Positions 2,748-37,211 of a DNA stretch of 38,333 nt are shown here, one piece after another. The position numbers and the translations under genes were made by a program. Positions within the stretch are counted from its first letter, which is position 1. Each line of letters opens with the position of its first letter. The DNA comes from Deltaproteobacteria bacterium (GTDB taxonomy: Bacteria > Desulfobacterota > Syntrophobacteria > Syntrophobacterales > Thermodesulforhabdaceae): assembly GCA_019309115.1 (NCBI GenBank), contig JAFDGW010000030.1, forward strand, positions 1 through 38,333, given 5' to 3'. The notes under the pieces are model-generated. The model ran no database searches and was not told where the DNA came from. It saw only the letters and a list, made by a program, of their open reading frames with translations.

Positions 2748-5276
2748 ATGATGGCACACAAGGGGAGTAGGCAAGAAAAGAGAATTACCGAAAGGTCACT
2801 AACTTCCTGGATTTTCAAGAAATACCTAGGGTTACAACTACTTCTCGCCTGTTTGATCATTGTCACTATTTTCTTCAGAGTGCTGCCTTTAGAAATGCAA
2901 AAACGAATCATAAATATTGCAATCGGCATGAAGTCATTGAATCGTCTGTTTCTATATTGCGGATTGTACCTCGTTTCCTTTCTCATGGCAGGGATTTTAA
3001 AGTATTGCATCAATGTTCTGCAAAATTACATAGGGCAAAAAATCTTGTATCACCTCCGCACAGAGCTTTACGACCATATTTTACAGCTCCCTCTTAACTT
3101 TTTTAGAAAGACACCGCCAGGTATGGTCATATCATCTCTAACCTCGGAGCTTACCGTAGTGGGAGAATTCCTTGGTTCTGCAATTTCGACTCCCTTGGTA
3201 AACTTTCTGACCCTGTTTACCTTTGCTGGCTACATGATTTATCTTAATCCTCTGCTCGCAATTGCCAGCTTTTCTGTCTATCCTCTAGAAATATTAATTA
3301 TCCCCCTCTTTCAAAAGAAATACAATCGCTTGAACAAGATACGGATAGATACCACCAGAACCCTGAGTAATCGAATCGGGGAAGCAATATCGGGTATTCA
3401 TGAAATCCATGGAAACGCCAGTTTTAGGATCGAAGTGGATAGGTTTGATGGAGTAGCAAAAAAACTATTTAAAATCCGTTGCAAGATGAACAGCACTAAG
3501 TACCTCATTAAATTTACAAATAATTTTTTTCAGAATATGGGACCTTTTGTTCTTTTCATCTTCGGTGGCTATCTTGCAATAAAAGGACGTTTAGACCTAG
3601 GCGCTTTAGTTGCTTTTTTGTCGGCATTCGAAAAGCTCTATGATCCATGGAAAGAACTGATGGAGTATTATCAGATCTATCAGGATGCGAAAGTGCGTTA
3701 TGCCCGGGTTATGAGTTATTTTGACCAGAAACCACCCTTTAAGCTGGCTCCATTGGATCGAGAACTTCTGGATCTCTCGGGTGCAATAACTGTGGATAAC
3801 GTGGCTTTTTACGTGGATGGACATCCAATTCTCGATCAGGTATCGGTAAGTGTGGGACCAGGTGATCAACTGGCACTTGTAGGATTTTCGGGTAGCGGAA
3901 AAAGCACCTTGGTGATGATCTTGGGCCAACTGTATGAATATCACCAGGGACATGTTAAGTTCGATGAAATCGAACTTAAGAGTTTGACAAAACTAGATAT
4001 AGGCAGAAATGTAGGTTACATAGCTCAATTTCCTTTCATATTTGAAGGTACTATTCGCGATAACTTACTTTATGCATGTAATGCGATCAACATCAATTTG
4101 AACCCAGAGGAAGCTCAATCATATATGCCCAGTGAACATGAGATTTTGGAAACTATAGAAAATGTTGGGCTTGGTCCGGACATATTGTCTTTTGGTTTGT
4201 ATTCCCGATTAGATCTTTGTCAAGAACGGGAACTCATGGAACAAGTTCTTGAACTCAGATGCGCCTTTTTAAGGAAACATAGAGAAACTCTGAGCCGGTT
4301 CATTGAATACTTTGAAGAGAACGAGTTCCTGGATTATTGTTCTATGGCAACAAATCTGGTGTTCGGTTTTCCAGTGTCAGGAAAGCCCACTGAAGAAGCT
4401 ATAGCTGAAAAACCAGAACTAGTGAAAATTTTAAAGAAATTGGGACTACTTATGCCAATGGTGGTGCTTGGGAGACATATAGTTGCCGAAACCATCGAAT
4501 TAATGAAGCAAGTCGAATCCGATGAATTCTTTCTAAAATCTTCACCCCTTTTTGATAAAGAGCTTCCATACTATGAGGAACTGCTCAAGAAGTATTCTGG
4601 TATTGGGACGATAAAGCAAAAGGACCTGTGGTCTTTTGTAATTCTTGCATTCAGATATAACCCTCACAAGCACCCAATGGTTGTTCTTCCTTCCACCTTT
4701 AAGGAATATGTCGTGCGATCTAGGAGAGAATTCCGTAAATTTATCGAAAGCCACTGGCCCGATGAGTTTCAGTTTATTCACCCATCAAAATATCTTTCGT
4801 ATTGCACAATTTTCAGAAACATAATTTTCGGAACGGTGAAGAGTGAGTACTCAGGAGCTGAGGAAGCCATAAAAGGTGCGGTAATCGAGTTGATTAAGAA
4901 AGAAGGAGCGGAGGAATCATTAATTTCGAAAGGACTAGAGTTTCATGTTGGAACCAAGGGAGATCGCCTGTCAGGTGGGCAGAAGCAAAAGGTTGCTATT
5001 GCAAGGACTCTGTTGAAAGAACCTCGCATACTTATAATGGACGAGGCAACGGCTAGCCTTGATAATGCATCGCAGCTGAAAATCCAGCAACTACTAACAC
5101 AGAAATTTAAAGGGAAGCGCACTGTACTATCTGTCGTTCACAGGTTGGAGACTGTTAAGGATTATGATCAAATATTGGTTATGAAGGCAGGAAAAATAGT
5201 GGAGCGTGGTAGTTTTGACGAACTTATGAAAAAGAAAGGCATTTTCTATGAGCTTTACCAGGGACATACAGTCTGA
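2748..5276 (+). CDS. ABC exporter (fused permease-ATPase) with a large insertion in the NBD
   Basis: An 842-residue type IV ABC half-transporter, longer than the usual 570-600. Residues about 25-310 form a six-helix exporter domain (TMD). The ATPase domain starts near 345: Walker A GFSGSGKST (379-387), Q-loop Gln427, then TIRDNLLYA. The signature LSGGQ comes only at 741-745, followed by Walker B ILIMDEATASLD (761-772) and the H-loop His798. Q-loop and signature are about 315 residues apart instead of roughly 70, so about 245 mostly helical extra residues sit in the helical subdomain. The extra part repeats the motif N-[LI]-x-F-G (around 536 and 691), resembling the native Asn439 segment. All catalytic motifs are intact. 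The substrate is unknown. The next gene overlaps its 3' end. A GAGG lies about 10 bases before the ATG. Confidence 0.9.
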   Translation: MMAHKGSRQEKRITERSLTSWIFKKYLGLQLLLACLIIVTIFFRVLPLEMQKRIINIAIGMKSLNRLFLYCGLYLVSFLMAGILKYCINVLQNYIGQKILYHLRTELYDHILQLPLNFFRKTPPGMVISSLTSELTVVGEFLGSAISTPLVNFLTLFTFAGYMIYLNPLLAIASFSVYPLEILIIPLFQKKYNRLNKIRIDTTRTLSNRIGEAISGIHEIHGNASFRIEVDRFDGVAKKLFKIRCKMNSTKYLIKFTNNFFQNMGPFVLFIFGGYLAIKGRLDLGALVAFLSAFEKLYDPWKELMEYYQIYQDAKVRYARVMSYFDQKPPFKLAPLDRELLDLSGAITVDNVAFYVDGHPILDQVSVSVGPGDQLALVGFSGSGKSTLVMILGQLYEYHQGHVKFDEIELKSLTKLDIGRNVGYIAQFPFIFEGTIRDNLLYACNAININLNPEEAQSYMPSEHEILETIENVGLGPDILSFGLYSRLDLCQERELMEQVLELRCAFLRKHRETLSRFIEYFEENEFLDYCSMATNLVFGFPVSGKPTEEAIAEKPELVKILKKLGLLMPMVVLGRHIVAETIELMKQVESDEFFLKSSPLFDKELPYYEELLKKYSGIGTIKQKDLWSFVILAFRYNPHKHPMVVLPSTFKEYVVRSRREFRKFIESHWPDEFQFIHPSKYLSYCTIFRNIIFGTVKSEYSGAEEAIKGAVIELIKKEGAEESLISKGLEFHVGTKGDRLSGGQKQKVAIARTLLKEPRILIMDEATASLDNASQLKIQQLLTQKFKGKRTVLSVVHRLETVKDYDQILVMKAGKIVERGSFDELMKKKGIFYELYQGHTV

Positions 5277-5766
5277 GAAGTTACTCGAAGAATTCAAGAG
5301 CCAATGCCACATTGACCAGAACGTAAGGATTCTAAGAGAAGTTGAAGCTTTCGCCGTCGTTCCTATAAACAAACTTCGAGTTCTAGCAACTCTTTTCTCA
5401 CGCAAAAAATTTGTACGAAATTCCTTTTTATTTCGCCAGCACGATAGGGACCCTCATGGATACATTATTATAGAAGGAATTGTGCAGATTTATCGTCATT
5501 ACACCGATAAGTCTTACATGTTGCAGGAATTAACCCCCCATGATTTCTTTGGAGGATTAGCCCTGTTTGCGGATATAAAAAGATTATTCTCGGCAAAGGC
5601 TGCAACTGATGTAACTTGCCTGGTTATTGATAGGGAAACTTTTCACCGATTTACCCTTAACTTCCCAGAAGTAGCCACTAGAGTGCTGGAGACTATGATC
5701 AAAAGGGTTGTGGCCCTGGAAGATAAATTGTTAGACATGCAAATAGTTGAGTGCCGTTATGAGTGA
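5248..5766 (+). CDS. Cyclic-nucleotide-binding-fold (CRP-like sensor domain) protein without HTH
   Basis: 172 residues. About 35-150 match the cNMP-binding beta-roll: a FLFRQHDRDPHGYIIIEG strand-turn, then LQELTPHDFFGGLALF at the phosphate-binding cassette position, and VTCLVIDRETF. The C-terminal part is a helix with no DNA-binding domain, unlike CRP or FNR. The gene starts 29 bases inside the ABC exporter gene, so the two are translationally coupled and the protein probably modulates or senses for the exporter. The cassette lacks an obvious Arg at the canonical phosphate-binding spot, so the ligand, if any, is uncertain. A cytosolic partner of the ABC/HD operon is my inference. Confidence 0.82.
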   Translation: MSFTRDIQSEKLLEEFKSQCHIDQNVRILREVEAFAVVPINKLRVLATLFSRKKFVRNSFLFRQHDRDPHGYIIIEGIVQIYRHYTDKSYMLQELTPHDFFGGLALFADIKRLFSAKAATDVTCLVIDRETFHRFTLNFPEVATRVLETMIKRVVALEDKLLDMQIVECRYE

Positions 5767-21243: not shown

Positions 21244-22151
21244 GTAAGCGATCACAGGGTAATCATAGTAGTGCTGCAGATTTTTTGTATCCAGTGAGCG
21301 GGCTTTGTGATAAGTAAGAGTAGTCTGAGAGGAGAAGATCGTTGAAGCGGAAGAAAGCACCCACCGTTGATATTTCGTCAAGTGCAGAAGCCTTGGGATT
21401 GCCTTTTTCGGAGGAAGACTGGGAGGCAACACCTGCATGGGTTGCCTATTAGTCTTGGGGCAATCCAGAAAGTGATTGACCGTGCTTCTGAAGCTATTTT
21501 GCCTCATTATGAAGCGATCCGAGACAAGGCTCGATCATCGAAAGTGAATCATATAGATGAAACTCCGTGGTATAACTCCGGGTGGTTTACACTGGCTGTG
21601 GGTTATGGTCAGTCCTGTGATAGCTTTTTTTATGGTTCATGGAAAGCGCTCAAAAGAGGCTTTTAAAAGCTGATTGGGCAGAAAGCTCCGGTGACGAATG
21701 GGCATTGAAGGAGCTGCACACCCTGGTGCGTATGGCAAGGGTTCCTCCAAGTGAGGGGCAATGGAGTGCTTTTTATGCCAGGTTGTGTCGTTTCATCGCT
21801 CTCTATTGCGAGAGCAAGAGCGAAGCGGGAAAGTTTGTCCGAAGGTTGGAGGAAGAAATGGAATGCCTTTTTGCCTTTCTTGTTGAAGAGGGTGTGGAAC
21901 TCACAAATAATCTGGCTGAACGAACCATTCGCTTTGAAGTTTTGTGGCGGAAAAGAAGTCAGGGTACCAGAAATGATAGAGGATGCCGTTGGGTGGAGCG
22001 AATTCTGTCCCTGCGCCATACCTGTAGGCTCCAATGCAGGTCCACCTTCAATGTCCTTGTGGATGCGTTCTCTGCTTATTTCAAGGGACGAAAACCTGAC
22101 CTTGAATGGTTAACCGAGATTGGTAATGTATAACACCCCGTGATCGCTTAT
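21244..22151 (+). mobile_element. Degenerate IS66-family element, left copy, with both terminal repeats
   Basis: The left end GTAAGCGATCAC (21244-21255) is repeated inverted at 22140-22151 (GTGATCGCTTAT, one mismatch at the tip); GTAAGCG tips are typical of IS66. Inside is a broken TnpC and no tnpA or tnpB, as in the ISBst12 subgroup. At about 908 bases it is far shorter than an intact element. The bases outside the two ends (21236-21243 and 22152-22159) do not form an 8-base target duplication. The right end lies only 18 bases from the start of the defence operon. Confidence 0.85.
21342..22133 (+). pseudogene. IS66 TnpC transposase, broken by two internal deletions and a frameshift
   Basis: The TTG start with AGGAGAAG matches the right copy at 37311. 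After about 30 codons (APTVDISSSAEALGLPF) it jumps, near 21433, to the GLPISLGAIQKVIDRAS region. Compared with the right copy, about 525 bases are missing (right-copy bases 37403-37927). One extra base near 21581 shifts the frame in the ETPWY region relative to the right copy (SGGLHWLW). After 21665 a second segment, normally holding the DGY/H-L-R catalytic region, is absent. The C-terminal IS66 part (NNLAERTIRFEVLWRKRSQGT) is readable to the stop at 22133. It cannot encode an active transposase. Confidence 0.85.
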
Positions 22152-22169: not shown

Positions 22170-25034
22170 ATGCAGCCTGGAAGCATCGTACTCTTCCGCG
22201 AAAGGGACTGGGTTCTCCTCCCCAGTGAAGATGAGGGCATCTACCGACTACGTCCCTTGACGGGTGCAACTGATGAAGTAACCGCTGTCCATAGAGATTT
22301 AATTAGCATTATTCAGAATATCTTACCGGAGGAGCGTATCCAGCCATCGCAATTTCCTCTGCCATCACCCGAAGATCTTTCAGACGCCGCTAGCGCCTAT
22401 CTGTTGTGGCAGGCTGCTCGGCTGACATTGCGCGACGGAGCTGCCCCCTTTCGGTCTCTGGGCAGAATATCCATCCGACCGCGTGTTTACCAGTTCGTGC
22501 CGCTTCTGATGGCGCTGCGCCTTGACCCTGTGCGATTGTTCATTGCCGATGACGTAGGTGTAGGTAAGACCATCGAAGCTTTGCTGGTCGCTCGAGAACT
22601 CATCGACCGCGGCGAGGTGCGCCGACTGACCGTCCTTTGTCCTCCGTACTTGTGTGATCAATGGGAAAAAGAGCTCCGCGAAAAATTCAACCTGGAAGCC
22701 GTCGTAATCCGCTCGAGTACAATTGGGCAACTCGAGCGCAGTAAACCAGCCAACAAGACCATCTATGAACACCACCCGATTCAGGTCATCAGCATCGATT
22801 GGGTAAAAAGTGAGCAAAACAAGTACCTTTTCTTGCAATTCTGTCCCGAACTGGTGATTGTGGACGAGGCGCATGGCGCGGCCGAAGCAAGTCCCCGTAA
22901 CAAAAGCCAGCAGCAGCGGCATCAGCTATTACGGGAAATTGCGCAAGACGAAAAACGCCATCTGATCCTGTTGTCCGCCACACCCCATAGCGGAGTCGAG
23001 GCCGCGTTTCGATCCCTCCTGGGCCTTCTCCGCCCCGAGTTTCGTGAGTGGGACATCGGATCGCTTGGCAAAACGCAGCGGATTGAACTTGCCCGTCATT
23101 TCGTGCAACGAACCCGTAAGGATATCATCCGCGATTGGGAGGGAGTACATTGCTTCCCGAAGCGCATAAGCGTGGACAAGACTTATAAGCTTTCTGGACG
23201 GTACTGGAAATTGTTCAAAGAGACCTACGCTTTCTGTTCCAAGATTGTTCGCACAGGTCAGAACCTGGAAGAAAGAAAGCGACGGGTGCGCTATTGGGGC
23301 GCACTGGCTCTGTTGCGGTGCGTGATGTCCAGTCCCGCCGCGGCCGTTGCCGCGCTGGAGAAGCGAGTCGGCAGTCCTGAGCTGAACGAAGAAGAGTCTG
23401 ACCCCGGTCGTTTCATCTTCGAAGCTTCGGATGATTTCACCGATGATGAAACCCCCACGCCACCCATCGAAAAAGCGGAGGTGAGTCTTTTAGACAGCGA
23501 ACGGCGCAGATTGCGTCAATTGGCGAGTTTGGCTCACAATCTTCTCCACACGCCACAGGACACCAAACTTGTTCGTTGTGTTAAAGTAATACAGGATCTC
23601 CTGAAAGAAGGATTTCACCCCATCGTCTGGTGCCGGTATGTGGCCACGGCCGAATATGTGGCGGAGGGGCTTCGCCGCAATCTGGATCAGGGCGTGCAGG
23701 TTGTTGCCATCACTGGCCGTATCGGCGACGAAGAGCGACGCATCAAGATTGACGAAATAGACACCAACCGACCTCGGGTCTTGGTGGCCACTGACTGTCT
23801 TTCGGAGGGCATCAATCTGCAGGAAAAGTTCACGGCTGTCCTGCACTACGACCTGCCCTGGAATCCCAATCGCCTCGAGCAGCGGGAAGGCCGGGTGGAC
23901 CGCTACGGCCAGACAGCCCAACAGGTCAAGGCCGTGCGCTTCTACGGCCGCGACAACCCGGTTGATGGGGCGGTCATCGACGTGTTGCTCAACAAGGCAC
24001 GCGAAATTCACCGCACTTTGGGCACCTACGTTCCTGTGCCCGAGGAAAGTGAAAGCGTGATGCAGGCGGTGTTGAATTCGCTCTTTTTGCGACGCCGAGA
24101 ACACATGCAACAACAGCTACTCTTTGAGGGTAACGAGGAGCTCCAGCGATTCCATCAACGCTGGGACCGCGACGCCGAGCGAGAACGGATCAATCGCACT
24201 CGCTTTGCCCAGCGTGCGCTCAAGCCGGAAGAAGTCAAACGCGAATTGGAAGCCACCGATGCCGTCCTCGGCGATCCGAGTGCAGTGCAGGAGTTCGTCC
24301 TGAGTGCTGCTCAGCGCCTGGGACTCATTATCGAGCCCGATCGTGGGCATCTCGATGTGTTCCGCGTCAACCTCTCAGCCCAAGCCGTGGCGACGCTGCC
24401 CAGTGCCGTGCGCTTTGAACTGCCTGAGACAAAAAGCGGCTATTGGCGCATCAGCTTTGTCTCCCCCACGCCGGAAGGTGCGGAGTACGTGGGTCGCAAC
24501 CACCGCTTCGTGGCGGCGCTGGCACGCTTTCTCCTAGAGGAGGCTCTCGTCAAGGGCAAGGATGCCGTGGCCTCCCGATGCGGTGTGTTGCGAACACGAG
24601 CCGTGAACATCTTAACGACACTGCTATTGCTCCGGGTGCGCTACCTGGTGGAACTTCCCCAGCGGGTACCACTTCTTTCCGAAGAGGTCCTCGTCCTGGG
24701 CTACCGGCCACTGGAGGTGGCCAGGGATCCTTGGCTCAGCGATGGCGAAGCACTAGATCTGCTCGCCAGCGCCAGGCCCGATGAAAATATCCCCTATGGA
24801 GAAAAGCGCGAACTCGTTGAGATGGCGCTTGAGGAGATTGGCGAGTGGGGGAAGGGAACCGATGTGCAGGAGGCCATCCGTCAACGGATTCGCCGGCGAG
24901 CACGGGAACTGGAAGCGAGTCACAGGCGCATCCGCAAGGCTGTGTCGCTACGCGTGCGGGAACTGAAAGTCAAACCACAGTTCCCGCCGGATCTACTGGG
25001 CATCCTGATATTGCAACCGGTGGTGAAACCATGA
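22170..25034 (+). CDS. drmD: SNF2/DEAD-type helicase, DISARM DrmD-like
   Basis: 954 residues; ATG at 22170 with GAGGTAACGAG upstream. Superfamily 2 motifs are complete: a Q-motif-like region RPRVYQFVPLLMAL (about 103-116), Walker A ADDVGVGKT (126-134), DEAH (232-235), SATPHSG (269-275), a C-terminal RecA domain with VLVATDCLSEGINLQ, and motif VI EQREGRVDRYGQ near 570-581. The wording LDPVRLFIADDVGVGKTIEA is characteristic of DrmD, the SNF2-like helicase of class 1 DISARM. The last 300 residues are charged and helical with no known domain. It is the first gene of the three-gene operon and overlaps the methylase start by four bases. Symbol by resemblance only; RapA-like helicases are the alternative. 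Confidence 0.85.
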   Translation: MQPGSIVLFRERDWVLLPSEDEGIYRLRPLTGATDEVTAVHRDLISIIQNILPEERIQPSQFPLPSPEDLSDAASAYLLWQAARLTLRDGAAPFRSLGRISIRPRVYQFVPLLMALRLDPVRLFIADDVGVGKTIEALLVARELIDRGEVRRLTVLCPPYLCDQWEKELREKFNLEAVVIRSSTIGQLERSKPANKTIYEHHPIQVISIDWVKSEQNKYLFLQFCPELVIVDEAHGAAEASPRNKSQQQRHQLLREIAQDEKRHLILLSATPHSGVEAAFRSLLGLLRPEFREWDIGSLGKTQRIELARHFVQRTRKDIIRDWEGVHCFPKRISVDKTYKLSGRYWKLFKETYAFCSKIVRTGQNLEERKRRVRYWGALALLRCVMSSPAAAVAALEKRVGSPELNEEESDPGRFIFEASDDFTDDETPTPPIEKAEVSLLDSERRRLRQLASLAHNLLHTPQDTKLVRCVKVIQDLLKEGFHPIVWCRYVATAEYVAEGLRRNLDQGVQVVAITGRIGDEERRIKIDEIDTNRPRVLVATDCLSEGINLQEKFTAVLHYDLPWNPNRLEQREGRVDRYGQTAQQVKAVRFYGRDNPVDGAVIDVLLNKAREIHRTLGTYVPVPEESESVMQAVLNSLFLRRREHMQQQLLFEGNEELQRFHQRWDRDAERERINRTRFAQRALKPEEVKRELEATDAVLGDPSAVQEFVLSAAQRLGLIIEPDRGHLDVFRVNLSAQAVATLPSAVRFELPETKSGYWRISFVSPTPEGAEYVGRNHRFVAALARFLLEEALVKGKDAVASRCGVLRTRAVNILTTLLLLRVRYLVELPQRVPLLSEEVLVLGYRPLEVARDPWLSDGEALDLLASARPDENIPYGEKRELVEMALEEIGEWGKGTDVQEAIRQRIRRRARELEASHRRIRKAVSLRVRELKVKPQFPPDLLGILILQPVVKP

Positions 25035-28000
25035 AGACCTTTACTGCTATCCGTATCGAAGGAGGCCTGTTCGCTCCAGACCTGATGGAGCAGGTTATGG
25101 CTGAGGAGCTTCCCGGCCAGAAAGCCAGTGACTTCGGCTTGGACAGCCGCCGGAGCCTGATTGATGAGATCGCTGCCGTCTTCGCTGATGCCCAGGCGCT
25201 CTGGCGGGTCTTCCAGCACCGGCTGGAACGTCTCCCTGAGTCGGATCTTGGGACGACAGTCACACGCGAGGCCTGGATGATCCCGTTCCTCGGCTTGCTC
25301 GGCTTTGAGCTGCGCTACAACCAGCGGGCTTATGTAGTCGGTGGCCTTACCTTCGCCATCTCACACCGAGCTGGCGAACCGGAAGATGCGCCGCCGGTGC
25401 ACATCATCGGCGTGCGCCGGGAACTCGGACGTCGAGGCCGGGAGCGGCTGGCGCCCCATTCCCTGGTACAGGAATTCCTCAACCGCACTGAGGCCCTGTG
25501 GGGTCTGGTTACCAACGGAAAAATCCTGCGACTCTTGCGCGACAGTACCTACATCCGTCGCCAATGTTATGTGGAGTTCGACCTCCAGGCCATCTTCGAG
25601 CAGCGCCTCTTTCAGGACTTCACTGTTCTGTACCGGTTGCTTCACCGTACCCGCCTCCCCAGAACTGGCGCCGACGTCCACCAGTGCCTGCTGGAGCAAT
25701 ACTACCAGCACTCCATCGAACAGGGTGGCCGGGTGCGTGATCGGCTCCGGGACGGCGTGGAAGAGTGCATCAAGCACCTGGCCAATGGGTTCCTCAGGCA
25801 TCCTAAGAACAACGAACTGCGGCGACTGATCCAGGCTGGTGAAATCACTCCCCAAAAGTTTTACTATCAGCTTCTTCGGCTGGTCTATCGCTTTCTTTTC
25901 CTCTTCGTTTCCGAAGACCGGGGTCTCGTCAGCCAGAACCCTCTTTATCTGGAGCATTACAGCGTCAGCCGTTTCCGCCGGCTGGTGGATACTCGCGCCG
26001 CCTATACCGAGCACGACGACCTCTGGCATTCCCTGCGGGTGCTCTGGAAACTGCTCTCGGACGATACACCAGCCCAGCAGGTTGGTAGCAAGCCCCTGGC
26101 CGCGCTACTCGACCTGCCCGTGCTCAACGGCGAATTGTTTGAACCGATTTCCCTCGACACCTATCGCATCACTAACCGCGACGTGCTCGAAGCTTTGCGG
26201 TTTCTGATTAACTACCAGGAAAGGCCTTCAGACCCGCCCCGACGGGTGAACTACGGTGTGCTGGACGTGGAAGAGCTCGGCTCAGTCTACGAGAGCCTGC
26301 TGGACTACCATCCGCAGATCGATACCTCTGGCCCGCTCCCTCGCTTTGACCTTGTCTCCGGCTCAGAGCGTAAGTCCACCGGCTCCTACTACACTCCGGC
26401 CGAACTGGTAGCCGAGCTTGTCCGTTCTGCACTGGAACCGGTGATGGAGGAACGACTTAAAAGGGCTAAAACTGCGGAAGAAAAAGAGCGCGCCCTGCTT
26501 TCCATCAAGGTGGTAGACCCTGCCAGTGGCTCCGGGCATTTCTTGCTGGCAGCCGCCCGCCGGTTGGGTAAGGAACTGGCTCGCATCCGCACCGGCGAGG
26601 AGGAACCCGCGCCTGAGCATATCCGCGAGGCAATCCGGGATGTGGTGGCTCACTGCATCTACGGCGTGGACAAAAACCCACTGGCCGTGGAGCTCTGCCG
26701 TGTCGCCCTGTGGATCGAGTCCCACACGTCCGGCAAGCCTCTCACTTTCCTGAACCACCGCATTCGCTGTGGCGACTCACTAATCGGCGTGTTTGACCTG
26801 GAAGCGCTCAAGCAGGGCATTCCGGATGAGGCATTCAAGCCTGTTTCGGGGGACGACAGGAAGCTCGCTGCCAAGCTCAAGCGCTGGAACCGCGAGGAAC
26901 GCCAGGGCCAGCTTACAGCCCTTGCCGTTTTGCTGTACAGAGTTTGCAAGACTCATGACCTGGTTACCGAGGTTCAGGCTATTGAGAGCATTGCTGACGA
27001 CTCACCCGAGGCCATCCGCCGGAAGAAGCAGCGCTTTGAAGCGCTACAACAAAGGGCCGAGCACGAACGCACTGTCTGCAATTTATGGACTGCGGCTTTT
27101 TTCCAGCCCAAAAACAACGAAACATCGCCCGCGGCGTCCATTACCACTGATATTCTGCGGAACTGCCTGAAATCAAACCCCACCTACTCCCAGGCGCTAC
27201 CAAAACACATCCAGCCCCTGGCCCAGCAAATCCAAGCCCTGGTCAAGTATGCCCGGGACTTGGTCCGCCAGCATCATTTTTTCCACTGGCCGCTGGAGTT
27301 TCCGGAGGTGTTCGCGCGTGGTGGGTTCGATGTGGTTCTAGGTAACCCGCCGTGGGAGCAGGAATTCTTTGCCGCCCGCGATCCCGAGATCGCCAACGCC
27401 CCCAACGCCGCCGCCCGCAAACGGCTGATCCAAAAATTGCCCAAGACCAACCCCGCTCTCTGGCAGGAATACCAGGAGGCCCTGTACGCCGCAGAAAGCA
27501 CAAGCCGGTTCTTGCGTGGATCAGGCCAGTATCCGCTTACCGGCCGCGGCGACATCAACACCTACTCAGTCTTTGCCGAGCGCATGCGCTGGCTGCTCAA
27601 GCCCGGCGGCCGGGCCGGTATCATCGTGCCCACCGGCATCGCCACTGACAACACCAACAAGTACTTCTTCGCCGACCTGGTGGAGAAAGGCGCCCTGGTC
27701 AGCTTGTTTGATTTTGAAAATCGAGAAAAAATCTTCCCAGCTGTGGATAGCCGTTACAAATTCTGCCTGCTCACTCTGCAGGAAGCACCAGAGCGCGAAC
27801 ACACAGGGGCTGCTACCCCGCTCACCTTTGCCTTCTTCTGCACCCGCGCTGAGCGCCTGCGCGACCCTCGTCGCGTCTTTCATTTGACAGCCGCCGACAT
27901 TGCTCGCATCAACCCCAACACCCGCACCCTGCCGGTCTTCCGCACACGCCAGGACGCAGAACTGACCAGGGCCATCTACCAACGCGTGCCAGTGCTGATT

Positions 28001-29170
28001 AATGAGGAGAGAGAGGAAAATCCCTGGGGCGTGCGATTTCTGGCGATGTTTCACATGTCCAACGACTCCCGCCTCTTCCGCACCCGGGAGCAGTTGGAGA
28101 AGGAGGGTTTCCGGCTGGTGGGGAACCGCCTCGTGAAGGGAGGCGAGGTCTATCTGCCGCTGTATGAAGCCAAGATGATCTGGCACTACGACCACCGTTT
28201 TGGGACCTATGAGGGCGTAGAGAGCCGCTCGAGTACCCACCTGCCCACGCCTGATGGGGCACAGCACGCCAACTCTGGTTTTGTTGTCCAGCCCTGGTAC
28301 TGGGTGCCGGCCAAAGAAGTGAAAACCCGCTTAGGCTATTGGTCACGCGGCTGGCTACTGGGGTTTCGCCGGATTGCAAGATCGACAGATGAACGCACAT
28401 CCATCTTCACGTTGATGCCGCGCGTCGGCGCAGGTGACGTACTGCCGGTGGTGCTTGGTCCACGGGCCGCGGAAAGTCCTTTTCTACTTGCGTGCTTTTC
28501 GACCATATCCTTCGACTTCGCAGCTCGGCAGAAAATCGGCGGAGTTCACCTGGATTTTCACTATGCCAAGCAACTCCCCGTCCTCCCGCCGGAGGCCTAC
28601 ACGCCACAGGATTCGCGCTTCATCGTGCCGCGCGTGCTGGAACTGACCTACACCTCCTGGGACATCAAACCCTTTGCCGACGACGTCTGGAACGAAGCCG
28701 ATGAGGCCCTGCGCTCCGCCATCCGCCGCCAGTGGGAAGAAAACGCGGAGCAAACCGGCGGGCACGTATGGCAGTTGCCCGACTGGATCAAGGCCTACCC
28801 GGAGATCGAGACCGATCCGGACAAAGGAATCCCCTTCCCACCCTTCAGGTGGAATGAAGCCCGCCGTGCCCGCCTGCGTGCAGAGCTTGACGCCTACTAT
28901 GCTCGGCTCTACGGCCTGACTCGCAAGCAACTCCGCTATATCCTGGACCCGGCGGACCTCACCGAGAAGGAGCTGGCCGACATCCTGGACCCGTGGGAAG
29001 AGGTCGCCGATCCGCTCGATCCCGAAGGGTATGCCACTCGGGTCGAAGCATCGGACTTCCCCGGCGAGACCTTCCGGGTGTTGAAAGAAAAGGAAATTCG
29101 GCAATATGGCGAATACCGCACCCGCCGCCTGGTGCTGGAGGCGTGGGAGCAGATGGCATCTAAACCCTGA
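25031..29170 (+). CDS. Eco57I-type N6-adenine DNA methyltransferase, DrmMI-like
   Basis: 1379 residues from the ATG at 25031 (ATGA overlap with the helicase stop); an upstream extension to 24845 is an open-frame artefact. Motif I is VDPASGSGHFL (about 495-505), then IYGVDKNPLAVELCRVALW, and the catalytic N-P-P-W at about 772-775 in VVLGNPPWEQ. A target-recognition-like region follows (YEAKMIWHYDHRFGTYEG near 1040). The N-terminal 450 residues are helical and resemble the N-part of type IIG enzymes and PglX/DrmMI, but I see no PD-(D/E)XK nuclease motif there. It probably marks host DNA for a restriction-like defence system. It could also work as a lone type II methylase. GC-rich like its operon partners. 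Confidence 0.87.
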   Translation: MKTFTAIRIEGGLFAPDLMEQVMAEELPGQKASDFGLDSRRSLIDEIAAVFADAQALWRVFQHRLERLPESDLGTTVTREAWMIPFLGLLGFELRYNQRAYVVGGLTFAISHRAGEPEDAPPVHIIGVRRELGRRGRERLAPHSLVQEFLNRTEALWGLVTNGKILRLLRDSTYIRRQCYVEFDLQAIFEQRLFQDFTVLYRLLHRTRLPRTGADVHQCLLEQYYQHSIEQGGRVRDRLRDGVEECIKHLANGFLRHPKNNELRRLIQAGEITPQKFYYQLLRLVYRFLFLFVSEDRGLVSQNPLYLEHYSVSRFRRLVDTRAAYTEHDDLWHSLRVLWKLLSDDTPAQQVGSKPLAALLDLPVLNGELFEPISLDTYRITNRDVLEALRFLINYQERPSDPPRRVNYGVLDVEELGSVYESLLDYHPQIDTSGPLPRFDLVSGSERKSTGSYYTPAELVAELVRSALEPVMEERLKRAKTAEEKERALLSIKVVDPASGSGHFLLAAARRLGKELARIRTGEEEPAPEHIREAIRDVVAHCIYGVDKNPLAVELCRVALWIESHTSGKPLTFLNHRIRCGDSLIGVFDLEALKQGIPDEAFKPVSGDDRKLAAKLKRWNREERQGQLTALAVLLYRVCKTHDLVTEVQAIESIADDSPEAIRRKKQRFEALQQRAEHERTVCNLWTAAFFQPKNNETSPAASITTDILRNCLKSNPTYSQALPKHIQPLAQQIQALVKYARDLVRQHHFFHWPLEFPEVFARGGFDVVLGNPPWEQEFFAARDPEIANAPNAAARKRLIQKLPKTNPALWQEYQEALYAAESTSRFLRGSGQYPLTGRGDINTYSVFAERMRWLLKPGGRAGIIVPTGIATDNTNKYFFADLVEKGALVSLFDFENREKIFPAVDSRYKFCLLTLQEAPEREHTGAATPLTFAFFCTRAERLRDPRRVFHLTAADIARINPNTRTLPVFRTRQDAELTRAIYQRVPVLINEEREENPWGVRFLAMFHMSNDSRLFRTREQLEKEGFRLVGNRLVKGGEVYLPLYEAKMIWHYDHRFGTYEGVESRSSTHLPTPDGAQHANSGFVVQPWYWVPAKEVKTRLGYWSRGWLLGFRRIARSTDERTSIFTLMPRVGAGDVLPVVLGPRAAESPFLLACFSTISFDFAARQKIGGVHLDFHYAKQLPVLPPEAYTPQDSRFIVPRVLELTYTSWDIKPFADDVWNEADEALRSAIRRQWEENAEQTGGHVWQLPDWIKAYPEIETDPDKGIPFPPFRWNEARRARLRAELDAYYARLYGLTRKQLRYILDPADLTEKELADILDPWEEVADPLDPEGYATRVEASDFPGETFRVLKEKEIRQYGEYRTRRLVLEAWEQMASKP

Positions 29171-29186
29171 CCATCGGAGGCCCGCA

Positions 29187-29640
<454 letters not shown>

Positions 29641-29684
29641 TTCCAACCCACGGGAAGTGTGGGACGCACAACATGGAGGTCGCC

Positions 29685-32600
29685 ATGAACACGATTTTTG
29701 ATCTTCACAGACAAGTCCTCAATGACTACCGCGACTTCGTCCATTCCTTCATCCAGATTGCCGACGACCGGGCTAGGGAGTTCATCGAGCAGGCACTCCT
29801 GGAGGAAGAACGCCTGTGGCCGGAACCACTGTTGCAGCTCTCGCCCGCTTACAAACAGGCAGCCAGCGTGGACCAATTGGCCAAGCGGGGCCTTATCCAC
29901 CACGAAACCGCCCGGATCTTCCGCACATATGACAATCGTCCTTTCCATCTCTACCAGCACCAGGTAGAGGCCATTGAAAAGGCCGTCCGCGGCGAAAGCT
30001 TCGTGGTCACATCGGGCACGGGCTCAGGCAAAAGCTTCTGCTACTTCATACCCATCGTGGATGCCGTCGTGCGCGAGCCTGACCTCCAGCGTCCCGTGGC
30101 GCTGATTGTTTATCCCATGAACGCGCTGGCCAACTCGCAACTGGCGGCACTTGAGCAATTGGCTAAGGAGTATCTCCAGCGGACGGGCCGGCAGTTCCCC
30201 GTGCGCTTCGCCCGCTACACCGGGGAAACGCCCGAGAAAGAACGCCGGGACATCCGCAACGATCCCCCACATATCCTTCTTACCAACTACGTGATGGCCG
30301 AGCTAATGATGGTCCGTCCTGAGGATCGTGGACTGAGGTGCGAGGGCACTTCGCGGCTGTTCTTAGTCTTTGACGAACTGCACACCTATCGGGGCCGTCA
30401 GGGGGCTGATGTAGCCATGCTGGTGCGCAGGCTTAAGGCGCGCATGGGCCGAGAGCCGGTGATCCACATCGGCACCAGCGCTACCATGGTAGCACACCGG
30501 GAGGCCACACCTAAAGAACGTCGCCAAGCCATAGCCGACTTCGCCTCGCGCTTTTTCGGTCATCCCATCGGTCCCGATGGGGTCATCGAAGAGACCCTGG
30601 AACTAATCACGGAAGGCGGCCCGCCGTCCGAGGAGGAAGTGAAGGAAAACTTTGAGACGCCTCTGCCCCAGGAGCTGCAGGCGTTCTGCCGCCATCCCCT
30701 GGCTCGGTGGCTTGAATACGCCCTGGGTGTCGAAACCGAAGAGGATGGAAGGCTACGTCGGCGGGTGCCCCGAACCATTTCCGACGCCGCGCGGGAACTC
30801 GCCACCATCAGCGGGCGTGATGAAAAAACATGCTGTCAGAAGTTGCGGGAGGTCCTATTGCACGCGCTACGTATCCCATCTGAAAACGGTCAGCCCGTCT
30901 TTCCGTTCAAACTGCATCAGTTCATCAGCCAGGGGCGTGCTGTCTATGCCACGCTCGAGCCACTTGAGCAACGCCGATTCAGCCTGGAAGAGCGCTCTTC
31001 AGACAGGGGCGAGACGGTCTGGGCGCCGCTGAGGTTCTGCCGTGTTTGTGGCCAGGATCATTACCGTGTGGTACAACAAAATAACCGATTCCGAGCACTC
31101 CCGCCGGATGCCGAAGATCTGCTCGAGGAAGGAACGCCTGGCTACTTGACGCCTGAGTTCCCAGACATGCCGGATGTCAAAGAAATGATCCCCTCGAGCT
31201 GGTATAACCGAAGCGGCCGGCTGAATCCTACCTGGCGTGGCAGAGTACCCCAACGAGTGTGGGTCTTCCCCGATGGCAAGTTTAACTTTGAAGAGGTGGA
31301 GGGTGCCACGCCCATGTGGTGGCAGCCGGAGCGGTTCTGGCTCTGTCTTCGCTGCGGCGAGCACTATACAGCGCGAGAGGGAGAGTATTCCAAGCTGGCT
31401 ACACTTTCCACCGAAGGCCGGTCGTCTGCAACCACGGTGCTGGCCACGGCTCTTCTCCGGAATGCCAGACAGACCAGAGTTCTAGAGCCGAAGCTACTGA
31501 CCTTCACCGACAACCGCCAGGATGCCTCGCTTCAGGCGGGCCATTTCAACGATTTTGTTCAGGTGGCCGTCTTACGGGCGGCCCTCTATCGAGCCTTGCA
31601 AGAACAGAAAGAGCTTCGTTTCAACACGGTGGCTCGGGAAGTCGTTCGCCATATGGGGCTAGAACTTTCAGTCATCGCACAGAACCCAGAACTGGATCCG
31701 GAGAGCCATGCGGCCCGGCAGGTCTGGGAAACGTTCGAGGAATTGACGGAATACCGCCTCTATGAAGACCTTCGACGTGGTTGGCGGATTGTGCAGCCGA
31801 ATCTCGAGGATGTGGGCTTGTTGCGGATAGAATATAACGGGCTGCCCCAACTATCGGAGCGAGAAGATCTCTTTCGTAATTTACCGGGCTTAAGCGATTG
31901 CAGGCCAGACGAACGCGTCCAGGTGTTGCGGGCTGTGCTCGACTACTTCCGCAAGCGGTTGGCCATTGAGGCCAAGGTGCTCCGGGAGAACCAGCAGCGA
32001 GGGTTGCAGCGCCGCTCGGGGCAATACCTTAACGAATTTTGGGGGCTCGATTCGGATAACCCAAACCTGCGGCAAGCCACTATCATGGTACGCCCCGGCC
32101 AATCGTCACGCTTGCCCCGCGGCGCTTTCAAGCTTACTGCGCGATCGCTCCTGGGACGTTACCTCCAACGAACGCTCAGGCTTGATTCGAGTGAAGTTGA
32201 GACGCTGGTGGATAGGCTGCTGGAGTTGCTAGTCCAGCAGGGATTTGTGCGTGAGCTGAAACGGTTCCAGGATCACCGCTGTTTTCGTCTGGACGCTGGA
32301 TGTCTTGTCTGGCGTTTGGGGAACGGTACGCCGCATCTGGACTCCATATGGTCGCGCCGGGAGACGGATCTACGTCCGCTGGTCAACCAATTTTTCCAGC
32401 GGTTTTACCGAGAAGCGGCCAGCGAGCTGGCCTCACTGGAAGCACGAGAGCACACGGCACAGGTGGTGGCTGAGGGCGAACGTGAGCGGCGTGAACGCCG
32501 CTTCCGCGGTGAGGAAGGCCCTCCGCTGCCGTATCTGGTCTGTTCGCCCACCATGGAGCTGGGCATCGACATCGCCGATCTGGATGCCGTTCACCTGCGC

Positions 32601-34709
32601 AACGTCCCTCCCACGCCGGCCAACTACGCTCAGCGTAGCGGCCGGGCTGGGCGTCAGGGACAACCAGGTCTGATCGTGGCCTACTGCGGTGCCTACAGCT
32701 CCCATGACCAGTATTTCTTCCGCCATCGCGAGGAAATGGTAGCGGGCAGCGTGCGCGCGCCCAGGTTCGACCTCACCAACGAAGCCTTGGTCCGCGCCCA
32801 CGTACAGGCTGAGTGGCTGGCGCAGGTGAGCCTGCCGCTACGGCAGTCGGTTCAGGAGGTGATCGATATCGATCAGCTTGAGGCGCTGCCCCTTCGGGAA
32901 TCTGTCACTCCTCAGCTCGAGCTTAGTGATCGTGCGCTGGGTGAGCTGCGGTCGAGGATTGAGCGCATACTGGTCCATGACCATGATGAGCTGAAGCGTT
33001 CGGGCTGGTTCAGCCAGGAGTGGCTGGAACGGGTTTTGGACGAAGCGCCAACGAGTTTTGACCATGCTTTTGACCGATGGCGAGAGCTCTATCGGGCGGC
33101 AAGCGTCCAGCTCAAACGTGCACAGGAGTTGATGTGGAAGAACGACAGGCAGGCCCAAGAACGGGCACGGAAGCTGCAGGAAGAGGCGATCCGTCAACGC
33201 AACCTGCTGCTGCAACAGGGTGTAGCACGTGAGGAGGGAGACTTCTATCCCTATCGGTATCTGGCCAGCGAAGGATTCCTGCCGGGTTACAACTTCCCGG
33301 CCCTGCCGGTGCGGGCCTGGGTCCCGCGACGGGAGCAAGGCGAATTTATCGCACGTCCACGTTTCCTGGCGATCCGTGAGTTCGGTCCGCAAAACATCGT
33401 CTACCACGAAGGTTCCAAGTGGGAGGTAGTACGGTTTCAAGTGCCGCCAGGCGGGCTAGCGCAGCGCCGGATGCAAAAAAGGCTATGCCTGACATGCCTG
33501 GCTTTTGCCGAAGTCGAAGACGATCTGTGCTCAGTCTGCGGTACCCGCTTCGACGGTTCCAACTCTTCCATTGTGTCACTTTTGGAAATGCCCAACGTTA
33601 CCCTACGCCGTCGCGAACGCATCACCTGTAATGAAGAGGAGCGCATCCGCCGAGGATATCGCTTAGAGATGGCCTATCGCTTCGCACCTGCTGAGAGTGG
33701 TCACCGGGTTGTGAAAGCCCTGGTACCGGGTCGTTTGGAGCTCCAGTACGCCCCTTCGGCTACCATTCTGATCGTAAATCACGGCTGGCGGGCTCGGCGA
33801 GTAGAAGGGTTTCTCATTAACCTGGAATCAGGAGAGTTGGTATCTGAAAGCGCTTTGGAAAACAATCACCATCAGCCTTTGGCTGATCGTGCTTCAGTCC
33901 AGCGTGTCAAACTTTGCGTACAGGACACGCAGAACCTCTTGCGCCTGAGGGTTTTGGAGCCGTCGTTGCGTAACGATCACGTTTTCGAGACAAGCCTGAT
34001 GTACGCCCTGGAACGAGGAATCGAGCGGGTCTTCCAGCTTGAGGATTCTGAACTGGTAGCGGATGTCGTGGGTGAAGGCGAAGGACGTGCGCTGGTGCTC
34101 TATGAGGCGTCCGAAGGCGGCGCTGGGGTGTTGCGTCGGCTCGTTGAGGAACCAGGTGCCCTGGCTGAGGTGGCTCGAGAAGCCTTGCAGCTGCTACATT
34201 TCGATCCGGAAACCGGTAAGGACCTGGCCAAGGATGAACACCGGGCCTGTTACGAGTGCCTGCTGAGCTTTTCCAACCAACTCGTGGCTCATCTGCTGGA
34301 CCGACATCGGGTTTGTGATTTTCTGCGCCAGTTGACTGACTGCCAGGTGGAAATTCAATATGGCTCACGCAAACGTGAGGAACACTACCGCTGGCTTCGT
34401 GGGTGCACTGATCGCCGGTCCGATCTAGAGCGAACGTTTCTGGACACGCTCTATCACGGTGGATATCGTCTGCCGGATGAGGCGCAAAGGCGGATTTCAG
34501 ATCCGGAGTGTATTGTTGACTTTTTCTACAAGCCGAACGTCTGCATCTTTTGTGATGGTCCGGTTCACAATGAACCGGAACAGCAAATTCGTGACGAAAA
34601 GGTCCGCCGTCAGCTCCGAGTCCGTGGTTACCGCGTCGTCTCCATTCGGTACGATCGTGACCTGCTGGAGCAGGTGCGACAGTATCCGGAGGTATTCGGG
34701 AAAGTGTAG
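29685..34709 (+). CDS. Giant DEAD/DEAH helicase with DUF1998-like Cys clusters and C-terminal nuclease-like domain
   Basis: 1674 residues from the ATG at 29685, preceded by GGAGGT; the frame stays open upstream to 29448 only because of the RAYT remnant. Motifs: Walker [10 protein letters not shown] (109-117), [14 protein letters not shown] (230-233), GTSATMV (about 263), a C-terminal RecA domain with [25 protein letters not shown] and [10 protein letters not shown] (about 980-990). Cys pairs occur at CRVCG (about 452), CLRCG (about 556), CLTC...CSVCG (1267-1285) and CYEC (about 1522), the last ones matching the DUF1998 end of MrfA/YprA and DruE. Residues about 1585-1674 ([50 protein letters not shown]) resemble a DUF559/Vsr-type endonuclease. 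Likely the effector or translocase of the island's defence system. Confidence 0.85.
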
Positions 34710-36588: not shown

Positions 36589-36843
36589 ATGTATAAAATC
36601 ACTTTTAGCAAACAGGCTGACAAAACTCTTCGAAAAATGCCTCGAAATTTAGCCTTAAAAATTGCTAAAAAAATAAAAGAATTAGCTAACCATCCAGAAA
36701 AAATGTCAAATATTAAGAAATTAACCAATCATCCTGGATACAGGATGCGAGTGGGAGATTGGCGTATAGTTTATCTGGTTAATGATAATGAAAAAAATAT
36801 TCACATTATAAAAATAAAGACGAGAGGTGGAGTATATAAATGA
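36589..36843 (+). CDS. RelE/ParE-superfamily toxin
   Basis: 84 residues. MYKITFSKQADKTLRKMPRNL opens the family fold, followed by two helices and GYRMRVGDWRIVYLVND, then a strand IHIIKIKTRGGVYK. These are the RelE signature parts; the R-x-R-x-G-x-[WY]-R-[IV]-x-Y stretch is diagnostic. RelE-like toxins cleave mRNA at the ribosome and ParE-like ones poison gyrase; the sequence alone does not decide. It is followed by, and overlaps by four bases, an HTH antitoxin. AT-rich composition. Confidence 0.9.
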   Translation: MYKITFSKQADKTLRKMPRNLALKIAKKIKELANHPEKMSNIKKLTNHPGYRMRVGDWRIVYLVNDNEKNIHIIKIKTRGGVYK

Positions 36844-37211
36844 ATGTTCAATTTATTGAAAAAAATGGTAAGCCTGAATGGGCAGTAATTCCTTATAAAG
36901 AATATATAAAAATTCAAGAATTAATGGATGATATTGAAGACAGAAAGGATATCGAGAAATATGTCCAAGCAATAGAGAACGGGGAAGAGCAGAACATTCC
37001 TGGTGAAGTGACCTTTGCTATTTTAGAGGGGATTCATCCCATTCGGGCATGGCGTGAATACAAACAGATTACGGTTAGAGAGCTTGCAAAACGAGCAGGT
37101 ATTACGTCTTCATATCTTTCTCAGATAGAAACTGGGAAAAGAAATCCCACAATAGATACATTAAAATCAATAGCAGAGGCCTTGGGGATAGATGTTGAAA
37201 TATTAATTTGA
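36840..37211 (+). CDS. XRE-family antitoxin of the RelE-like toxin
   Basis: 123 residues. The N-terminal 70 contain WAVIPYKEYIKIQELMDDIEDRKDIEKY, similar to the antitoxin part that binds toxin. The C-terminal 55 hold a Cro/CI-type helix-turn-helix: TVRELAKRAGITSSYLSQIETGKRNPTIDTLKSIAEALGI. The gene overlaps the toxin stop (ATGA). Toxin-first order with an XRE antitoxin is found in HigBA-like and RelE/XRE systems. It probably represses its own operon and neutralises the toxin. Its stop is only two bases before the start of the right IS66 copy. Confidence 0.9.
   Translation: MNVQFIEKNGKPEWAVIPYKEYIKIQELMDDIEDRKDIEKYVQAIENGEEQNIPGEVTFAILEGIHPIRAWREYKQITVRELAKRAGITSSYLSQIETGKRNPTIDTLKSIAEALGIDVEILI

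Follow-up and report, generated by a model that had tools for sequence, protein, structure and literature searches.

An ABC exporter family of Desulfobacterota with extra copies of a helical-lobe segment in its ATPase domain and a cNMP-fold gene as neighbour

What fills the long gap between the Q-loop and the signature motif of an ABC exporter encoded on contig JAFDGW010000030.1 (hereafter the window, the whole stretch of 38,333 nucleotides that was analysed), and what might it do? In an ABC motor the power stroke reaches the permease through the helical lobe, and the segment of concern here contacts the permease in ordinary exporters. The first-pass annotation placed an expanded nucleotide-binding domain (NBD) at positions 4056-4960, which corresponds to residues 437-737 of the open reading frame at 2748-5276, and we confirm this expansion. 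It also gave about 315 residues from the Q-loop to LSGGQ, where we counted 314 (Q427 to L741 of LSGGQ); for ordinary exporters it gave about 70, and the consensus of 19 NBDs from related genomes has 56. The roughly 258 extra residues are largely copies of the lobe. We know of no described case in which a helical lobe has been copied within one chain and kept, and our searches of Pfam, NCBIfam, the PDB and the literature turned up no description of such an architecture.

The exporter gene (2748..5276, forward strand) encodes an 842-aa protein with a permease domain of the ordinary type (PF00664, residues 52-295, 1.6e-31) that is N-terminal to the NBD (PF00005, from residue 362, 7.6e-27, matched in two stretches). 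This single-chain order is that of a type IV ABC exporter half-transporter. As had been proposed, the catalytic motifs are kept. Walker A (GFSGSGKST, residues 379-387, 3882..3908), the Q-loop, the signature motif LSGGQ (residues 741-745, 4968..4982), Walker B (ILIMDE, residues 761-766, 5028..5045) and the H-loop (H798, 5139..5141), all on the forward strand, form a complete set; the tested positions, among them Walker A, the Q-loop, S742-Q745, D765, E766 and H798, show 100% conservation across the 75 family members that were aligned. D772 is also present. The best NCBIfam score was to MsbA (TIGR02203, 305.7 bits), far under the 602-bit cut-off for assignment to this lipid A flippase. The gene product is probably a half-exporter with the type IV (ABCB/MsbA-like) fold, and would most likely work as a homodimer in which both ATP sites are normal. 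It shares a permease and NBD on one chain and all ATPase motifs with the type IV exporters MsbA (TIGR02203), TAP1, Sav1866 and TmrAB, but differs from them in the approximately 258 extra residues between Q-loop and signature motif.

Three copies of the lobe segment can be delimited on the forward strand. Copy 1 (residues 419-487, 4002..4208) is the true Q-loop strand with Q427 (codon 4026-4028) and N439, followed by helices, and matches the profile of ordinary NBDs with an E-value of 5.3e-12. Copy 2 (residues 488-586, 4209..4505), which hhalign aligns with both other copies and with ordinary NBDs, consists of a long helix with R504, the strand-like IEYF, N536, FG540 and helices, and is without any ATPase motif. 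Copy 3 (residues 642-735, 4671..4952) aligns by hhalign to copies 1 and 2 and runs on into the ordinary NBD match; it has a long helix with R659, an FQFI strand, N691, FG695 and helices up to the signature motif. The strands of the three copies read VGYIAQ, IEYFEE and FQFIHP, and the motifs that follow are TIRDN439LLYA, MATN536LVFG and IFRN691IIFG, with the three asparagines at the residues given by the first-pass annotation and 100% conserved in the 75 aligned members. Between copies 2 and 3 lies a spacer of about 55 residues (587-641, 4506..4670) that matches neither the copies nor ordinary NBDs, and that carries conserved F595, P600 and E605 just ahead of the invariant H642. The proposal of an internal multiplication of the helical-lobe segment thus stands for the copies, which match each other and the ordinary NBD profile, but not for this spacer. 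The spacer and the conserved partner genes described below were absent from the first-pass annotation.

The repeat was examined by hhalign of profile segments drawn from the 75-sequence family alignment. The earlier impression that the second and third copies resemble each other most is borne out, with a score of 51.0 for this pair versus 34.6 for copies 1 and 2 and 34.4 for copies 1 and 3. When the preceding helix is included, the score for copies 2 and 3 rises to 72.6 (E 2.2e-13), so that the self-similarity scores span 34-73. Column-shuffled controls (100 per pair) averaged about 11 and peaked at 22; in 54 comparisons against unrelated windows from elsewhere in the protein the highest score was 14.4. 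These controls rule out a chance repeat. A separate profile, built from the 19 insert-free NBDs of ordinary exporters in related genomes, placed the insert, taken by itself as residues 492-663, on the homologous Q-loop strand and TIxxN helix with a score of 36, compared with shuffles of 13.7 +/- 2.5 and a maximum of 21.9; for a longer copy-2 segment against the same profile, one shuffle reached 27.8. The profile of the insert also retrieves an ordinary 774-aa exporter (in genome G197) at E 5.8e-4. This protein was considered as a possible intermediate with fewer copies and was rejected as such.

One could ask whether the insert is a helical domain of unrelated origin that has only a short motif in common with the lobe by chance, and the low direct pairwise identity among the copies (13-24%) would fit such a convergence. 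We consider this very improbable, because the alignments are collinear over 49-84 columns and many standard deviations above the shuffles, and because the independent profile of ordinary NBDs also aligns the insert above its shuffles. A known domain of other origin, which had been named as a possible refutation, was sought among Pfam, NCBIfam and PDB sequences and with Foldseek; none of them gave a match, with no Pfam or NCBIfam hit to the insert, a best E-value of 0.85 in the PDB, and no Foldseek match below 0.001 for a model of the insert alone. By the profile alignments, the segment made up of Q-loop strand and helical lobe is present in three homologous copies, around N439, N536 and N691. 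As the alignments start at or near the Q-loop strand, the repeat unit is larger than first noted; the segments with the asparagine motifs were correctly recognized, but each copy also takes in the strand upstream. Like R753, R504 and R659 do not vary, and from each of these two it is 32 residues to the invariant asparagine that follows. This hints, but no more, that the long helices preceding copies 2 and 3 are decayed signature helices; the profile comparison did not reach them.

An AlphaFold2 model (29-sequence alignment) has a mean pLDDT of 84.7 and a pTM of 0.76, and most blocks of the insert have a pLDDT of 85-95; modelled alone, the insert has a pLDDT of 80.9. The insert is thus predicted to be an ordered module. 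Within model residues 331-839, 245 of the 251 residues of the TAP1 NBD are aligned (rmsd 1.9, Z 30.4), which accounts for one normal helical lobe and leaves the rest as extra. The predicted fold is that of a solved exporter, Sav1866 (Z 30.3, rmsd 3.8 over 445 residues). Short strands are predicted at 519-521 and 540-542 in copy 2 and at 674-676 and 695-697 in copy 3. Their equal 21-residue spacing suggests, without proof, that copies 2 and 3 are a matched pair. The best VIA-align match of the insert alone pairs residues 524-664 with residues 737-807 of the ABC exporter subunit IrtA, and is weak (Z 3.9, 71 residues, rmsd 2.9).

Homologues with the same insertion, the search for which had been suggested, were found in 36 of 60 genomes of relatives, in 21 of 297 genomes sampled from the whole phylum, and at 48 loci of a genome contig collection, all titled Deltaproteobacteria or Desulfobacterota groups. 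As the patterns for this contig scan came from one part of the family, its finds speak for Desulfobacterota only; a contig search with a single sequence as query gave no match. The statement that no standard family has this layout is therefore correct as far as Pfam and NCBIfam go, neither of which has a model covering the insert, but the proteins constitute a widespread family of their own, carried by sulfate reducers and related bacteria. All 68 loci listed, a set in which some genes occur twice, have a distance of 360-380 residues between Walker A and LSGGQ. A longer insert, indicated by a long match span at one of them (L082), was dismissed, as the distance there is only 361 aa. Throughout the 75 members N439, N536, N691, R504, R659 and R753 are invariant, and within the insert so are N536, G540, P600, H642 and R659. 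The insert nonetheless diverges faster than the core, with a median identity to the window protein of 26% versus 50-60%. In a core tree from which the insert was left out, all insert-bearing proteins fall on one side of a single branch (support 100/99); some ordinary exporters in this tree are long-branched, which limits what it can say about the sister group. Because the insert-bearing proteins are held together across one branch, a single origin of the insert in Desulfobacterota is the simplest reading.

The exporter gene overlaps by 29 nt a gene (5248..5766, forward strand) that encodes a 172-aa single-domain cNMP-fold protein (PF00027, residues 53-135, 4.1e-18). Like CRP/FNR transcription factors it has the sensor domain; unlike them, it lacks a C-terminal helix-turn-helix domain in Pfam searches, and the sequence after the sensor domain is too short for one. 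In the genome contig collection a cNMP-fold gene, usually overlapping, directly follows the exporter in 44 of the 45 loci whose contig continues past the exporter. The same was seen at 10 of 11 additional loci and at all 20 of another set that overlaps in part with the earlier ones and includes one (L199) whose exporter was known from the phylum-wide genome draw. The cNMP-fold gene is a near-obligate neighbour of the insert-bearing exporter. In 20 control loci of ordinary exporters from related genomes (12-13 kb around each), cNMP, RsbW and STAS genes were found in none, and a SpoIIE-like match in three. Two insert-bearing exporters have no cNMP neighbour (L086 and L114), so the insert can persist without this gene, and these two may show which part of it is independent of the partner. 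Four loci (L186, L187, L188 and L189) have another cNMP-fold gene some 1-2 kb past the first. In the ligand cassette of the partner, the glutamate position of the canonical cAMP/cGMP site is Gly in 34 of 52 sequences and Glu in two, and the arginine position is Arg in 39 of 52. With the usual cAMP-contacting glutamate missing, the partner is unlikely, as judged from its sequence, to be a plain cAMP receptor.

Other regulatory genes are found near many of the exporters. An RsbW-type ATPase and/or a STAS gene occurs within about 4 kb of the exporter in 46 of 48 loci of the genome contig collection, a sample biased towards the families used as query, and the linkage was seen in 8 of 20 loci of another sample. 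The RsbW, STAS and SpoIIE genes occur in several orders and strands, and the SpoIIE phosphatase often bears MASE10, HAMP or Cache sensor domains. SpoIIE, STAS and RsbW genes also adjoin the exporter at L086 and L114. Beside many of the exporters there are genes of the kinds that make up the RsbU/RsbV/RsbW partner switch, for a SpoIIE phosphatase, STAS and HATPase_c_2 proteins. The classic target of that switch is a sigma factor, whereas here the constant neighbour is the exporter. The window gene and its nearest relatives have no adjoining HATPase_c_2/STAS/SpoIIE partner switch; the window's genome has one RsbW/STAS pair, away from the exporter.

We favour, with a confidence slightly short of even, a regulated exporter in which the extra lobes serve as a docking platform for the cNMP-fold subunit; the alignments establish the anatomy alone, and the docking is what we infer from it and from the neighbouring gene. 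In a single ancestor within Desulfobacterota, the region spanning the Q-loop strand and the helical lobe would have become threefold and the 55-residue spacer would have been added, in an order that can only be surmised. Placed between the ATP site and the signature motif, close to the coupling of NBD and permease, the added segments would make up an ordered accessory module. This module may dock the cNMP-fold protein encoded directly downstream; when that subunit binds a ligand or a protein, closure of the NBDs may be permitted or blocked. In many relatives an RsbU/RsbV/RsbW-type switch could set the state of the subunit. Counting against this explanation are the two loci without a cNMP neighbour (L086, L114), the partner's lack of the usual cAMP-contacting glutamate, and the absence of an adjoining partner switch at the window gene and its nearest relatives. 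A more specific version, in which the NBD has been rebuilt as a receiver whose lobes bind a cNMP-fold subunit set by partner-switch phosphorylation, so that small-molecule and stress signals gate the pump post-translationally at the joint of ATPase and permease, is possible but doubtful. If the copies do dock the partner, the two genes would make a system in which the gating of an exporter by signalling is directly testable.

There is precedent for exporter function that needs a cNMP-fold domain. HetC of Nostoc is a peptidase-containing exporter with a fused cNMP domain that is essential in vivo, and its N-terminal part binds ppGpp rather than cAMP (PMC10986499). In HetC, however, the cNMP fold is fused at the N-terminus together with a C39 peptidase, whereas in the window it is encoded by a separate gene and the NBD bears the insert; Pfam finds neither a C39 peptidase nor a cNMP-fold domain in the window exporter chain. 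In the ABC importers MetNI and ModBC an extra NBD-linked domain controls transport (PMC10710835), but these regulatory domains are C-terminal, have other folds, bind the substrate itself and are not copies of the NBD lobe. None of the three uses copies of the NBD's own lobe, and the pairing of exporter and cNMP-fold gene suggests a form of on-off control over exporters that has yet to be described.

Other roles for the copies have to be weighed against a docking platform. Since the copied segment is the permease-contacting one in ordinary exporters and every TIxxN asparagine is invariant, the extra copies could instead enlarge the interface between NBD and permease, with more than one copy touching the coupling helices and altering the stroke while the cNMP partner acts elsewhere. 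The permease domain is ordinary (PF00664), though, and a lobe of ordinary size already fits the model (the 245 of 251 TAP1 NBD residues), and we regard this as unlikely. Somewhat less likely still is a cargo- or membrane-handling adaptor, whose extra helices would bind a cytosolic substrate, or the carrier of one, and hand it on to the permease. Order in the model and a conserved length, combined with faster divergence than the core (26% versus 50-60%), are what a recognition module may show; against this, no cargo gene is conserved beside the exporter and the conserved neighbours are regulatory in type. The duplication could also be a frozen accident, its copies first tolerated and then needed for folding, with no regulatory role and with the cNMP gene as a separate operon partner. 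The extra copies lack most lobe residues, and one origin and a fixed length fit a frozen event, but the invariance of N536, G540, P600, H642 and R659 despite an insert identity of about 26% points to a selected function, and we think this account improbable.

Several features elsewhere in the window may be recorded. Directly before the exporter, at 1690-2687 on the reverse strand, are divergent genes for a rubrerythrin and a Fur-family regulator, and the exporter start is close to that of the Fur gene. A fragment of an IS66 transposase (21639-22133, forward strand; PF03050, 6.7e-9) directly precedes three large adjacent reading frames (22170-34709, forward strand) that look like a phage-defence island. 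They encode an SNF2-type helicase (best PADLOC model DpdE, 1.2e-181, then DrmD), an Eco57I-type DNA methylase (DrmMI, 3.5e-88, then type IIG models) and a 1753-aa helicase (DruE models, 2.9e-91), a mixture that no single named defence system appears to fit cleanly. After the island, at 36840-37211 on the forward strand, a small helix-turn-helix protein is encoded that matches PADLOC control-protein models (HTH_VI, 3.6e-20).
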